Positions 50,131 to 55,551 of a DNA stretch of 62,856 nt are shown piece after piece. The stretch lies in NCBI GenBank assembly GCA_902761735.1, contig CACWLL010000006.1, positions 258,681 to 321,536 of the forward strand, given 5' to 3'. The position numbers were made by a program, and so were the translations under genes. Positions within the stretch are counted from its first letter, which is position 1; each line of letters opens with the position of its first letter. The DNA is from an uncultured bacterium. GTDB taxonomy: Bacteria > Cyanobacteriota > Vampirovibrionia > Gastranaerophilales > Gastranaerophilaceae. The notes under the pieces were generated by a model. It was not told the origin of the DNA and did not search any database. It was given only the letters and a program-made list of their open reading frames with translations.

Positions 50131-50145
50131 CCCTCACTTGCTATG

Positions 50146-50161
50146 TCCATATCTGACGCAT
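50146..50161 (+). promoter_or_regulatory. Cassette operator/promoter site 1
   Basis: TGTCCATATCTGACGCAT reads as an imperfect inverted repeat TGTC..ATAT..TGACR. CTGACG with a 16-nt spacer to TAATAA could be the promoter for the 39-aa gene. Closely matches site 7. Confidence 0.5.
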
Positions 50162-50208
50162 ATATCATTCATCATAATAATGTAAGCAATAATAAAAGGA
50201 GTAAACCT

Positions 50209-50328
50209 ATGGATTTTATCTCATTTTTGTTAGGCGGTATGTTCGTTGCAGATGTATTAGATGAGTACGACCGTGAAGATGAAAACGACGATTATTTTGA
50301 TGATTATGAGGAGGACGACGATTTTTAG
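50209..50328 (+). CDS. Small acidic protein (39 aa)
   Basis: MDFISFLLGGMFVADVLDEY followed by an almost wholly acidic tail (about 14 Asp/Glu in the last 20 residues). ATG has AAAAGGAG 6-7 nt upstream. The hydrophobic N-terminal 17 residues could insert in a membrane. Strongly acidic small proteins can mimic DNA or block basic partners; next to a basic 23-aa peptide under a similar promoter, a toxin-antitoxin or inhibitor role is possible but unproven. First gene of the accessory cassette. Confidence 0.55.
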   Translation: MDFISFLLGGMFVADVLDEYDREDENDDYFDDYEEDDDF

Positions 50329-50343
50329 TATTAATTAATATTC

Positions 50344-50381
50344 CCATATCTGACATATTGATAATTTCTTGTATAGATGAA
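50344..50381 (+). promoter_or_regulatory. Cassette operator/promoter site 2
   Basis: CCATATCTGACATAT shares the site-1 core; CTGACA, 16-nt spacer, TATAGA forms a promoter for the 23-aa ORF. Confidence 0.5.
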
Positions 50382-50393
50382 AGGCGGTTAATT

Positions 50394-50465
50394 ATGTCAA
50401 TCGCAGGCAAAAAAAGTATCGGAATATATAAAATTATCAAAATCAAAATTCAGGAGCAGATTTAA
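50394..50465 (+). CDS. Tiny basic peptide (23 aa)
   Basis: Starts MSIAGKKSIG, continues IYKIIKIKIQ and ends EQI. It has its own promoter (site 2) and an AAAGGCGG RBS 7 nt before the ATG. Five lysines alternate with isoleucines, giving an amphipathic, cationic peptide like small type I toxins or membrane-active peptides. Too short for similarity to be meaningful; coding status rests on promoter, RBS and composition. Confidence 0.4.
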   Translation: MSIAGKKSIGIYKIIKIKIQEQI

Positions 50466-50476
50466 TCTATAAAACT

Positions 50477-50497
50477 ATATGACACAAAATGACGCAT
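50477..50497 (+). promoter_or_regulatory. Cassette operator site 3
   Basis: TATGACACAAAATGACGCA: two direct TGACRCA copies 10 nt apart. It precedes CATAATAAAAATAAAAGGA and the 112-aa gene; the stretch TGACGCAT.TATCATTCAT is also shared with site 1. Confidence 0.55.
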
Positions 50498-50536
50498 GTA
50501 TCATTCATAATAAAAATAAAAGGATACAAAGCGTTT

Positions 50537-50875
50537 ATGACATTTGCTGTAATTAAACCAAAACCAGGAAAAGACGATGTAATCAGAATAGTAAGAACAA
50601 AACGGTTTAAAATGAACTATTCAAAGCAGTTGAACGCTATGTTCATGTGTTTGACTATAACAAAACATATTGCTTTTAGTACATGGATAAGACCTTATTA
50701 TATATCTTTTGACAGTGGTAATTTGTCATTAGGTATTGATTTTCATTACAGGCGGAAAAATATAGACCACAAAGGAATTAATATAATTTTAAGACTTTTA
50801 TTTTTGGAAATTGAAATTGAATGTACAGACAATAGGCATTTAGAAGATTATAAGAATAAGGAGGGAAATGCTTAA
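50537..50875 (+). CDS. Hypothetical cassette protein A (112 aa)
   Basis: Begins MTFAVIKPKPGKDDVIRIVRTKRFKMNYSKQLNAMF. Unrecognised. N-terminal strand-like segment, then TITKHIAFSTWIRPYYISFDSGNLSLGIDFHYRRKN and a helix ILRLLFLEIEIECTDN. The ATG at 50537 is chosen since an in-frame ATG at 50489 lies within operator site 3. RBS AAAAGGA at about 12 nt. Its end overlaps the start of the next gene, so the two products are co-translated and may form a complex. Confidence 0.65.
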   Translation: MTFAVIKPKPGKDDVIRIVRTKRFKMNYSKQLNAMFMCLTITKHIAFSTWIRPYYISFDSGNLSLGIDFHYRRKNIDHKGINIILRLLFLEIEIECTDNRHLEDYKNKEGNA

Positions 50876-51254
50876 ATACAACAATATAATAAAACTATAT
50901 GCAGGATTAACAAAAGAAGATTTTTATTATGCGTGTACTCCGTTAAGTCAGAAAACTACAGGCTTAAATATGATTGTATTTGTTTGCCCCAATTTTATTG
51001 AAAATTTAAGCCCGAGAATTTGGGTGCAAAACAATTATGATAGACATTCTGACGGTAACATACTGCCTGTTGATATTGATACTCAAACTGTTTCAAAATA
51101 TTATCGCAAAAAGTCTCTGAATCTTACAAGTAAAGACTTTGAACAATTAAAACAGTTTATAATAGCGAACAAAAAATTATTGCTAGAGGTATGTGAACAG
51201 AACCCACCATACTCATCAATAGAAATTTGGGAAAGAATAAAAAAGATAAAATAA
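50868..51254 (+). CDS. Hypothetical cassette protein B (128 aa)
   Basis: MLKYNNIIKLYAGLTKEDFYYACTPLSQKTTGLNMIVFVCPNFIENLSPRIWVQNNY. Unrecognised, soluble, mixed alpha/beta, with a charged helical C terminus (SKDFEQLKQFIIANKKLLLEVCEQN). Strong RBS AAGGAGGG 2-5 nt before ATG, overlapping the end of protein A by 8 nt. Stops directly before operator site 4. Confidence 0.7.
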   Translation: MLKYNNIIKLYAGLTKEDFYYACTPLSQKTTGLNMIVFVCPNFIENLSPRIWVQNNYDRHSDGNILPVDIDTQTVSKYYRKKSLNLTSKDFEQLKQFIIANKKLLLEVCEQNPPYSSIEIWERIKKIK

Positions 51255-51275
51255 ATATGACACAAAATGACGTAA
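51255..51275 (+). promoter_or_regulatory. Cassette operator site 4
   Basis: TATGACACAAAATGACGTA, nearly identical to site 3, ends 8 nt before TATAAT (51284-51289), so it overlaps the promoter of the predicted small RNA. Confidence 0.55.
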
Positions 51276-51295
51276 TGGTATTTTATAATAATTAT

Positions 51296-51412
51296 ATAGG
51301 CAAGCGATTCGCTATATGCCACGAATAACAATCAGAAGGAACACCGTTACTCACTTCGTTCGTAACAGTAACCTTTTCAAGACCGACCTTAAAATTAAAG
51401 GTCGGTTTCTTG
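51296..51412 (+). ncRNA. Predicted cassette small RNA
   Basis: No ORF, but promoter (operator site 4 plus TATAAT), two hairpins and a terminator fit a transcript of about 115 nt. Hairpin 1: GGCA-AGCG/CGCT-ATA-TGCC (51299-51320), with an alternative ATATAG/CTATAT pairing. Hairpin 2: ACxGTTAC/GTAACxGT around 51343-51369. A strong GACCGACCTT/AAGGTCGGT terminator stem (51381-51406) ends it next to the reverse transcriptase stop codon. It may be the retron template, though it is opposite in strand to the RT and lacks clear a1/a2 repeats, or a regulator. Confidence 0.5.
51381..51406. terminator. Bidirectional terminator between sRNA and RT
   Basis: GACCGACCTT and AAGGTCGGTTTC pair around an AAAATTA loop, between convergent transcripts. 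Confidence 0.75.
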
Positions 51413-51413
51413 A

Positions 51414-52286
51414 TTAAAAAAATTTATGTTTCAAAAAAATAGTAACAACTACATAATATTTATGTTCTAATTTTTCAGCATACTGTTTTAGTTGTGTATA
51501 AAAATGACTGTCAACGTGTTTTATATAAGAAATGTACCCTTCCAGCTGCCTTATTCTTTTGGTATCCCAAGCTAAATGTTTTGTTTCTTTAATGCTTGAA
51601 TTACAAATATAGATTACATAACTATGCAGCATCGCCCTGATTTTTCTTTTAAAATCTTTTGGCAACCGTACCCGATAATTATTCACAACAAGTCCTAAAA
51701 TGTTTTGTTGCTTATTATCTGAGATATATTTTGTTTTCTTTTTGTTTATTTTGTACCCGTAAAATGCTAAGAGTGCAGTAACTTTCTTTTCTACAATTTC
51801 CAATGTTTCTTTGCAGTACGAAGAAAAAGTCAAATCATCAACATATCTGGTGTAATCAACACCAAAAGCAGAACTTACTGACCTGATTTCTTTATCAATT
51901 TTTTTAAAACAAGCGTTTGCGATATGTGATGATGTCGGAGCACCTGTCGGCAATTTACCGTTTATGGTTACAAGTGATAAATAACTAAAAGAATTATAAT
52001 TCTGATTTATCCTGCGACATACTTTTGACACTACCCGTTGAATTTCATAGCTCGGAACAGAATCATAAAAACTTTTAATATCCATTTTTAAAATCCATTT
52101 TTTACCGGAATGAATTTTTGCAGAATTAAGTGTGTCCGCTTTATACGGATAAAGCCATTTTATCGCATTTAGGAAAAATCTTTGTTTTGCTTTTAATTCA
52201 TCACAAGGAATATGTATTATGCGATTTTTAATTCTTTTTATTGTGTAATAATATTCATCGCTGATGTAAAATTTATTTGAAGTCAT
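51414..52286 (-). CDS. Retron-type reverse transcriptase
   Basis: 290 aa. The order of motifs is that of retron RTs: SAKIHSGKKWILKMDIKSFY (residues 57-75), where SAKIH replaces the retron X motif NAxxH; LPTGAPTSSHIAN (112-124); active-site YTRYVDDLTFS (145-155); and NILGLVVNNYRVRLP (about 195-210), equivalent to the retron VTG region. It should copy a structured RNA into msDNA. ATG with AAGGAG, 24 nt after the stop of the DnaB-like gene, same transcript. No msr-msd is directly upstream, so the template RNA is elsewhere. Confidence 0.9.
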   Translation of the reverse strand: MTSNKFYISDEYYYTIKRIKNRIIHIPCDELKAKQRFFLNAIKWLYPYKADTLNSAKIHSGKKWILKMDIKSFYDSVPSYEIQRVVSKVCRRINQNYNSFSYLSLVTINGKLPTGAPTSSHIANACFKKIDKEIRSVSSAFGVDYTRYVDDLTFSSYCKETLEIVEKKVTALLAFYGYKINKKKTKYISDNKQQNILGLVVNNYRVRLPKDFKRKIRAMLHSYVIYICNSSIKETKHLAWDTKRIRQLEGYISYIKHVDSHFYTQLKQYAEKLEHKYYVVVTIFLKHKFF

Positions 52287-53197: not shown

Positions 53198-53215
53198 CGT
53201 CATTTTGTGTCATAT
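53198..53215 (-). promoter_or_regulatory. Cassette operator site 5
   Basis: On the minus strand ATATGACACAAAATGACG, identical to sites 3 and 4 over 18 nt, downstream of TATAAT (about 53223-53228) of the helicase-RT operon, a position suited to repression. Confidence 0.6.
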
Positions 53216-53258
53216 GTTTTTGTATTATAATAATCAAGTGTTGATAATGTTTTCATAG

Positions 53259-53277
53259 TGCGTCACAGATTGTCATA
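53259..53277 (-). promoter_or_regulatory. Cassette operator site 6
   Basis: On the minus strand TATGACAATCTGTGACGCA: same two TGAC half-sites and spacing as site 3 but a different centre. It lies in the divergent promoter region between the helicase and nuclease genes. Confidence 0.55.
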
Positions 53278-53321
53278 AGCGCATGCTATTCTGATATTAT
53301 AAAAATAGAAAGGAGTTAAGT

Positions 53322-54473
53322 ATGTCTGAAAATCAAAAAGGGAATTTATCAGAACTAATAAATGATTTATCAAAAAATGTAATGTTTAGGCTTTCTCTTG
53401 GCTCAAAAGAATTGTTTCACTCAAATTTTTGGGCTTGGTTATTAAATGAATATGGAAATAAAGCAACAAAAATATTTCAAGAAAACTGTGATAATGATAT
53501 TTGTGATGTATGTAGAGAAATGAGTCATACTGATTTGTCATTTGAATCTAATGGTAATTTAATTATCATTGAAAATAAGTTCAAGTCATATCCCAACTTG
53601 GAGCAATTACAAAGATATGCATATGAAAATTGTGATAATGGTCTTGATCATATTATTTTAGTTAGTTATTTTGAACCAACTTTTTTATCAGCTAATGGCG
53701 TTTCAAAGTTATCTGACAATTTGTATGAATATAAAGGCAATTACGAATATAAAAATAAAATTGTTGAATTATCTTTTAAGTTTAAGTATCTTTCATATAC
53801 TGATATTTTACTTAATTTAAGAAATTTTTGTCAAAATGTTTTACCGGAGCATAAAAAATATGTAGAGGATTATATATGGATGCTACAAAGTTTAATTGAT
53901 TTAAAAATATATTTATCTATGGAACATAATCCGAATAAAACTTTTCTTGATTTTATAAATGAGATAGATAAGGATGCAAATAAGGAAAAAGCAAAAGTTT
54001 TTAATTTTTATGAAACAATAAAAAAAATTTTTTGCTGTAATTTAATGACCAGTCTATTAAAAGATATAAATACTAAATTTGATAAGTGGGGAACTTTTAA
54101 TTATGCTTCAAGAGCAAATCACGTATACATGGATATTTTTATTTGTACCCCAAAACTAGGTATTATGAAAGATTTGGGTTTGCAATTAGTTTGTCAGGAA
54201 AATGAAAACCTACGTAAAAATATCCATGTTGATAAAGAAAGAGATAAAAACATAAGGGAAAAAATAAATAGTAACAGAAATGAGTATAAGTGGTTTTTTG
54301 AAAACACAAAAGATGGAAGTAGAAAAAAAATCCTTGGCTATGAATATGAAAAGGATGCTTGGTTATATAGGACATGTAATTCTGAAGTTTATGCGATAAA
54401 TAACAAGAAATATTCAGAAATACTTGCAATGTACCAAAACGAAGTCCAGGAAATAGAGAAATTATGTGAATAA
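53322..54473 (+). CDS. PD-(D/E)XK nuclease superfamily protein
   Basis: 383 aa. HTDLSFESNGNLIIIENKFKSYPNLEQLQRYA (about residues 67-98) carries a D...E-x-K catalytic core on two strands followed by a Gln-containing helix, as in the PDDEXK_4-type family; the N-terminal FHSNFWAWLL is also common there. Such proteins occur frequently near defence genes. The C-terminal half is charged and helical, ending with YEKDAWLYRTC. Strong RBS (AAAGGAG). Divergent from the helicase-RT operon, sharing its operator region. Confidence 0.75.
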   Translation: MSENQKGNLSELINDLSKNVMFRLSLGSKELFHSNFWAWLLNEYGNKATKIFQENCDNDICDVCREMSHTDLSFESNGNLIIIENKFKSYPNLEQLQRYAYENCDNGLDHIILVSYFEPTFLSANGVSKLSDNLYEYKGNYEYKNKIVELSFKFKYLSYTDILLNLRNFCQNVLPEHKKYVEDYIWMLQSLIDLKIYLSMEHNPNKTFLDFINEIDKDANKEKAKVFNFYETIKKIFCCNLMTSLLKDINTKFDKWGTFNYASRANHVYMDIFICTPKLGIMKDLGLQLVCQENENLRKNIHVDKERDKNIREKINSNRNEYKWFFENTKDGSRKKILGYEYEKDAWLYRTCNSEVYAINNKKYSEILAMYQNEVQEIEKLCE

Positions 54474-54567: not shown

Positions 54568-55551
54568 ATGCGTGAACAAAGCAGATTAAGAAAAGCAGAA
54601 GAAATAATTGAACTTGCGATGATGTTCCAAAACAGCTTCAGAGGCTTGTGTATATCAGATATTCAGGAGCATTTTGAATGTTCACGCAGGTCGGCAGAGA
54701 GAATGAAAACATTGTTATTTGATATGTTCCCCGAAAAGATTGAGGAAGTTGAATCAAATGACAAGAAAAAACGTTGGCGGTTTGTAAAAGGTACAATGAA
54801 TTCTCTTATAAGCTTTAATGCTGATGATTTTGCCAACCTTGAATATTTAAAAGGGTTGTCGCATGACGATACACGCAAACAAGAACTTGATGAACTTATC
54901 TCAAAAATTAAAGCATTAACGCCACAAAAGAATGCAAGAGGTTTAGAAACCGATATTGAAGCGATAATGGAATCTGAGGGCTTTGCAGTAAGACAGTATT
55001 CAAGAGTAAAAACAGACAGTAAAACGATGGAATTACTGCGTAATGCGATGCTCTCATTCAAGAGGATTCAGTTTAATTATGATATAGGGGGCAAATCAAA
55101 AACCATAATCCTTAATCCATACGGAATAATCATTGCTGATAAATACTATCTTGTAGGCTACAATGACTATGTGAAAGATTTAAGATTGTATAAGGTTGAT
55201 AAAATCAAGGGTTTAACTTTGCTTGATGAATATTTTGAAAAAGATGAAAACTTTTCTTTGACAGAATATTGCAATAATTCTTTCGGAATTTATCAGGAAA
55301 CACCGATAGATATAACCCTTGAATTTGATAAAGAGGTAAAAGATGATGTTCTGAACTACCATTTCCACCCGACACAAAAGATGAAAGAGCTAGATAACGG
55401 TAATATTCAGGTAAAATTCACATCAGGTGGAACATACGCAATCTGCCAGGAATTGTTTAAATGGGGGACGAGTGTAAAAATCAAGAAACCCGAATCCTTT
55501 AAACAATACTACAAAACCTACCTGTCAGACGTTTTAAAAAATCAAAACTAA
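54568..55551 (+). CDS. WYL-domain transcriptional regulator
   Basis: 327 aa. N-terminal winged helix-turn-helix (LCISDIQEHFECSRRSAERMKTLLFDMFPEKIEEVE, residues about 30-65), then a WYL domain (residues about 155-230) with NPYGIIIADKYYLVGYNDYVKDLRLYKVDKI, and a C-terminal WCX-like region. This is the layout of BrxR/CapW-type repressors that govern phage-defence operons. RBS AGGTGA. An operator-like palindrome in its own promoter resembles those at the other cassette promoters. Confidence 0.9.
   Translation: MREQSRLRKAEEIIELAMMFQNSFRGLCISDIQEHFECSRRSAERMKTLLFDMFPEKIEEVESNDKKKRWRFVKGTMNSLISFNADDFANLEYLKGLSHDDTRKQELDELISKIKALTPQKNARGLETDIEAIMESEGFAVRQYSRVKTDSKTMELLRNAMLSFKRIQFNYDIGGKSKTIILNPYGIIIADKYYLVGYNDYVKDLRLYKVDKIKGLTLLDEYFEKDENFSLTEYCNNSFGIYQETPIDITLEFDKEVKDDVLNYHFHPTQKMKELDNGNIQVKFTSGGTYAICQELFKWGTSVKIKKPESFKQYYKTYLSDVLKNQN

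Follow-up and report, generated by a model that had tools for sequence, protein, structure and literature searches.

The locus

The window (the whole 62,856-nt stretch of DNA that was analysed) contains, at 51255-51413, a gap lying between two small genes of no known family and the stop codon of a gene for a retron-like reverse transcriptase (RT). The first-pass annotation had placed an operator, a TATAAT box, two hairpins and a terminator in this gap, and direct reading of the sequence confirmed them, the last as a terminator-like hairpin. On the opposite strand, the RT shares an operon with a gene encoding only the C-terminal domain (CTD) of the DnaB helicase. The same annotation had seen no msr-msd in the 24 nt upstream of the RT, and rightly so: only these 24 nt separate the DnaB stop from the RT start, so that such an element cannot fit there. 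The longer DnaB ORF with its start at 53237 is not genuine but results from a TTG codon. The features are collected in Table 1.

Table 1. Features of the DnaB–RT locus and its surroundings, in window coordinates.
Feature	Position	Strand	Basis or remark
Third operator copy	50480..50494	+	Exact core match; ahead of two small genes
Two small genes	50489-50875, 50868-51254		No known family; behind third operator copy
Operator TATGACACAAAATGACG	51256..51272	+	Lies over the RNA promoter's -35 region; direct reading and homologous loci
-10-like TATAAT (putative)	51284..51289	+	Position common to most homologous loci; exact -10 and start not fixed
Conserved RNA core, model R1 (hairpin 1, A-rich linker, hairpin 2)	51297..51368	+	72.3 bits, E 5e-16
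Hairpin 1, GGC-A-AGCG-AUU-CGCU-AUAU-GCC	51299..51320	+	Presumed 5' end; followed by ACGAA
Hairpin 2, GUUAC ... GUAAC	51346..51366	+	5/6 pairs changed on both sides among loci
Terminator-like hairpin, U-rich tail	51377..51413	+	Tail reaches the RT stop codon (51414-51416)
Retron-like RT, 290 aa	51414..52286	-	Pfam RVT_1, PADLOC retron models, PDB Ec86 RT
DnaB-CTD-only helicase/ATPase, 282 aa	52311..53159	-	DnaB_C E 1.6e-73; Walker A GARPAMGKT; in operon with RT
Second operator copy, DnaB–RT promoter	53198..53212	-	Exact core match
PD-(D/E)XK_4 nuclease, PDC-S26-like	53322..54473	+	Divergent from DnaB–RT
WYL-domain regulator	54568..55551	+	Domain match; often beside DnaB–RT in relatives

Folded as a 120-nt RNA, the + strand of the gap gives z = -5.5 against 200 dinucleotide shuffles. 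Single-sequence consensus scans of the gap called no terminator and gave promoter matches near chance, and Rfam had no family at gathering score within it. The predicted product is a structured RNA of roughly 115-120 nt, and the terminator-like hairpin at the RT stop could be used by both the RNA and the RT transcripts.

A conserved RNA convergent with the reverse transcriptase

Relatives were collected by querying the RT against related genomes and an RT alignment against 84,980 species genomes. All of them are MAGs, and the loci are related to each other, so that the counts given below are not independent trials. The element order found here, directly 3' of the RT stop and on the opposite strand, is kept in all of the first relatives except one. 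A 73-nt covariance model (R1) that spans both hairpins was built from 13 loci and also matches loci left out of its building. With this model, the RNA is found in 33 of the 38 DnaB–RT loci from species genomes, always 3' of the RT and antisense to it, with a median of 130 nt from the RT stop to the RNA 5' end. Of the five misses, two fall at contig ends, so that 33/36 testable loci have the RNA adjacent; in the draft assembly G226, DnaB–RT is present and the RNA was not detected. The R1 search of 42 RT loci that do not have this DnaB gave no RNA at all (0/42, best E 0.18). The RNA is thus tied to the DnaB–RT loci, with a Fisher p of 7e-19 when loci are treated as independent, though they are related.

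The base pairs covary in the alignment: the covariation score is 0.378, compared with 0.188±0.016 for shuffled and at most 0.113 for slid partners, a score that is favoured by the alignment having been fitted to the structure. Changes on both sides affect 8/13 base pairs. Hairpin 1 is the best-conserved part, far above the remainder of the RNA; its alignment is nearly gap-free, 97.7-100% of its cells are paired, and its double changes turn A-U into G-C in 11 sequences, G-C into A-U in 4 and C-G into U-A in 4. The stem of hairpin 2, on the other hand, varies strongly in length between loci. Since hairpin 2 and the terminator differ in length, the consensus fold of the full RNA is weak when derived from MAFFT alone, a difficulty that the model-based alignment overcame.

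Which strand encodes the RNA? In 9 sequences, a C-G pair of hairpin 1 has become U·G when read as the RNA, whereas the RT strand would have C·A there; the RNA strand is therefore the one convergent with the RT. This bears on the reading that the gap holds only DNA-level or termination signals, an operator plus a bidirectional terminator for the RT and its neighbour, and no functional RNA. The terminator-like hairpin abutting the RT stop and the unimpressive single-sequence scans would fit such a reading, but hairpins 1 and 2 lie upstream of the terminator and covary, the G·U pairs are seen on one strand only, the promoter spacing is fixed, and copies of the RNA occur away from any RT. Signals without an RNA are very improbable.

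The check proposed in the first-pass annotation, a covariance search of homologous loci, has thus returned a structure kept and covarying in about 30 of them. Together with the promoter architecture and the exclusive association with DnaB–RT, this lends strong support to its main claim, that a small RNA under operator control converges with a retron-type RT. We are highly confident that this RNA is real and is part of the DnaB–RT system.

A common operator

The 15-mer core of the operator, TGACACAAAATGACG, has three exact copies in the 2.0 Mb genome (51258, 50480 and 53198), all within 2.7 kb of the locus. Among relatives, the palindrome TAYGNC-N6-TGACR lies 23-27 nt ahead of hairpin 1 in 29/32 RNA loci, against a baseline of 5.6% of random 60-mers that match equally loosely; a perfect operator equivalent precedes DnaB in 20/38 loci, compared with 2.6% of random stretches. 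Half-operators, ATATCTGACGCATA and ATATCTGACATATTG, also occur at 50143-50400, ahead of a very acidic 61-aa ORF and of the next stretch, and the PD-(D/E)XK nuclease gene has an operator-like palindrome, TGCGTCACAGATTGTCATAAG, in its promoter at 53260-53285. Several relatives (e.g., L031, L033, L105, L107, L109-L111) also carry the small gene of 50489-50875, placed 3' of the RT.

From its usual nearness to DnaB–RT, the WYL protein is probably the candidate for binding this operator. In CapW/BrxR-type defence loci, which are WYL-regulated, the WYL protein is found by the defence operon and palindromic operators lie over the promoters. The arrangement described here is similar, with a WYL protein near a defence-like operon and palindromic operators over promoters; it differs in that a separate RNA, convergent with the operon, is under the operator as well, and WYL binding is putative.

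A common operator raises the question of whether the RNA is simply a trans-acting sRNA of the WYL regulon, base-pairing with mRNAs and merely co-regulated with DnaB–RT. The operator shared by the RNA and DnaB, the convergent position and the A-rich unpaired linker are in line with this. However, the pairing to its own DnaB or RT mRNA is no better than to swapped ones, the RNA co-occurs strictly with DnaB(–RT) across sporadic loci, and the conservation of hairpin 1 is strong, like that of a protein site. An sRNA of this kind has a slim chance of being the answer. For the same reason, own pairing being equal to swapped, antisense regulation of the DnaB–RT mRNA by the RNA is unsupported.

The DnaB–RT operon and its clade

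In all 38 loci of the clade (species genomes), the DnaB-CTD gene is directly upstream of the RT, while none of 42 further RTs retrieved has such a DnaB upstream. The DnaB C-terminal-domain gene is the constant partner, and it shares the operator of the RNA; both points were absent from the earlier reading. The protein is ~45-50% identical to the full-length DnaB of the same genomes and has no N-terminal domain. A second DnaB-like protein (460 aa, 35% identical) is encoded in L031:11318-12700, a few genes from DnaB–RT.

The 38 loci come from gut and rumen MAGs of Candidatus Gastranaerophilales / Melainabacteria, and the few bins bearing other names are probably binning errors. A search for the clade in IMG/VR viral contigs, phages and plasmids returned only distant RTs, at about 22-36% identity. 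One Bacteroidales-labelled bin holds two near-identical DnaB–RT–RNA copies (L118 and L119), a pair that is probably either binning contamination or a mobile unit. In the tree, the RTs of these loci form a single clade on a long stem, nearest to retron RTs, and keep YxDD/FxDD. At the locus the motif is YVDD, and the RT has SAKIH instead of NAXXH and ILG instead of VTG.

Is it a retron?

By similarity the RT is of retron type: the 25 best PADLOC matches listed are all retron models, the Ec86 RT is the best match in a PDB profile search (E 5e-40), and the DRT models Drt3a/Drt2/Drt4 score far below the retron ones. In validated retron RTs, NAXXH and VTG are each typical (14/16), the NAXXH outliers substitute the N, and the msr-msd is placed upstream of the RT (PMC6868368). 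In the clade RTs tested, the Asn of NAXXH is missing throughout (37/37, xAxxH), whereas the 46 other RTs retrieved mostly have NAXXH; likewise, the Thr of VTG is missing in 37/37 ([IVL]LG), and the 46 others all have VTG, ITG or VSG. No msr-msd was found ahead of the RT within its transcript; the sole conserved RNA found is 3' and antisense, or elsewhere in the genome. Pairing of the a1:a2 kind, between the 5' flank and the region after the terminator, amounts to -4.16 kcal/mol for own and -4.00 kcal/mol for swapped loci, the RNA ends being predicted ones. Furthermore, the promoter makes the RNA start at hairpin 1 or slightly ahead of it, which leaves little or no a1.

Could it nevertheless be a canonical retron, with a1/a2 and the branching G inside the RNA or its immediate flanks, missed as the true ends differ? 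Such a reading draws on the nearness of the RT to those of retrons and on the order hairpin-hairpin-long hairpin, which recalls msr plus msd, the length of hairpin 2 being variable like that of msd stems. It is quite improbable, given flank pairing no better than in swapped loci, the loss of the two motif residues in every tested RT of the clade, and an RNA that does not precede the RT in the operon and may be unlinked. Of the earlier suggestion that this RNA is the template candidate of the RT, the partnership is well supported, by trans copies among other things; an msr-msd that has a1/a2 and a branching G and serves as template is conjectural, as no a1:a2 was found and the RT clade departs from both motifs. 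DnaB–RT–RNA is not a proven retron.

The comparison with retrons (Ec86/Eco1, types II-A, III-A and X) is instructive on both sides. The RT is nearest theirs (PADLOC RT_II-A/X/III-A), and there are a structured ncRNA, a constant partner protein as possible effector and a defence-island setting. Unlike theirs, the RNA has a promoter to itself and is either unlinked or convergent on the 3' side of the RT, no a1:a2 was found, and the partner is a DnaB C-terminal domain, which is absent from the retron effectors of PADLOC and NCBIfam. To our knowledge, DnaB is not among the partners in published retron types; in the open-access literature, nothing relevant was found for retrons together with DnaB, and no mention of retrons in Gastranaerophilales.

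Like DRT2, DRT9 and DRT10, the locus combines an RT with a neighbouring structured ncRNA of ~100-200 nt and a possible protein partner, but this RT groups with retrons. In DRT10, an A-B-A' template repeat follows a stem-loop and the ncRNA is upstream in the operon (PMC12632851). The RNA described here is convergent and 3', or unlinked, and an A-B-A' repeat was not found in its linker, where the longest direct repeat is 3.6, compared with 3.9 in shuffled sequences.

The RNA away from the RT

A genome-wide R1 search found the RNA in 30/383 genomes of the order. Three of them, G090, G217 and G450, have DnaB–RT with no adjacent RNA and one RNA elsewhere, each preceded by an operator-like promoter and showing the order of three hairpins; the R1 matches of G090 (E 1.9e-4) and G450 (E 5.7e-4) are weak, and operator and architecture support both. 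As the RNA is unlinked from DnaB–RT in these genomes, it is probably able to act in trans. G102 has one additional copy of the RNA. Copies of the RNA that have an operator-like promoter but lack a neighbouring RT are L078:7781-7868, L271:4716-4808, L273:4850-4927 and L278:3662-3731, that in L273 adjoining an isocitrate/isopropylmalate dehydrogenase gene and that in L271 a phage-type integrase. Where 0.5-0.8 kb of extra DNA separates the RT from the RNA, the RNA is still 3' of the operon and antisense to it.

Two related genomes, G193 (L268:5634-6639) and G445 (L269:5734-6739), keep DnaB, the RNA and the operator, with the RT missing between them. A non-template role is thus possible; in these genomes the RNA may serve DnaB, or may be decaying. 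Is the RNA, then, a cognate cofactor instead of a template, scaffolding or inhibiting the RT and/or DnaB as an RNA antitoxin or assembly RNA, while the RT has another template or none? Besides these two genomes, the failure to find a retron or DRT10-type template signature in the RNA and the conservation of hairpin 1 far above the remainder speak for it. Nevertheless, an RT is present in nearly all RNA-positive genomes, G193 and G445 being the known exceptions, and it keeps YxDD/FxDD in a family whose members copy their partner RNA. On balance, a cofactor is rather unlikely.

A possible mechanism

The reading preferred here is that the gap encodes an RNA dedicated to a DnaB–RT system of three parts, in which the RT binds and copies the RNA and the DnaB-CTD is the effector. 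We give it an even chance, and copying of the RNA by the RT, taken by itself, is just as finely balanced. All of the following is predicted from sequence: that the RNA is expressed, that the RT binds and copies it, that the DnaB-CTD is the effector, that the system works against phages, and which regulator controls it. A locus-specific regulator, probably the neighbouring WYL protein, would bind the common palindrome and turn on DnaB–RT together with the convergent RNA. The RT would then bind the RNA, likeliest via the bulged 5'-terminal hairpin 1 and its ACGAA flank, and make a small DNA copy of the downstream part (the linker and the variable hairpin 2). The RT–RNA(–DNA) complex so formed would control, or be used by, the DnaB C-terminal-domain ATPase. 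This protein may be an effector or a client; its targets could be, for example, host or phage replication, and perhaps it mixes into replicative helicase hexamers.

In the retron literature consulted here, the template RNA is encoded in cis, upstream of the RT (e.g., PMC6868368). Tentatively, and with somewhat less than even confidence, the present loci can be seen as a retron-derived RT lineage with no msr-msd in cis: its RNA would be autonomous, independently transcribed and unlinkable, priming would proceed with no a1/a2, a DnaB CTD would have been captured as effector, and one operator would govern the whole. If this is true, a retron-like system can naturally have its RNA separated from its RT, an unexplored RT makes DNA from an RNA supplied in trans, and a replicative-helicase domain joins the known partners. 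The strict co-occurrence of DnaB, RT and RNA, together with the common operator, makes this a concrete, testable system in gut Gastranaerophilales.

Genomic setting

Another question concerns the purpose of the system. Genes of defence type, namely McrBC, ResIII and AbiEii-like ones, are found near DnaB–RT loci, and with the PD-(D/E)XK neighbour they suggest a role of DnaB–RT in defence. In that setting, the RNA is probably what was still lacking, the RNA component of a defence system that is built on a reverse transcriptase and has not been described before. In L036:6388-8376 and L043:6013-7995, a gene for a tandem AAA ATPase of ~660 aa adjoins DnaB–RT; other loci have a gene of similar length, which in L033 is an AbiEii-like AAA_21 instead.
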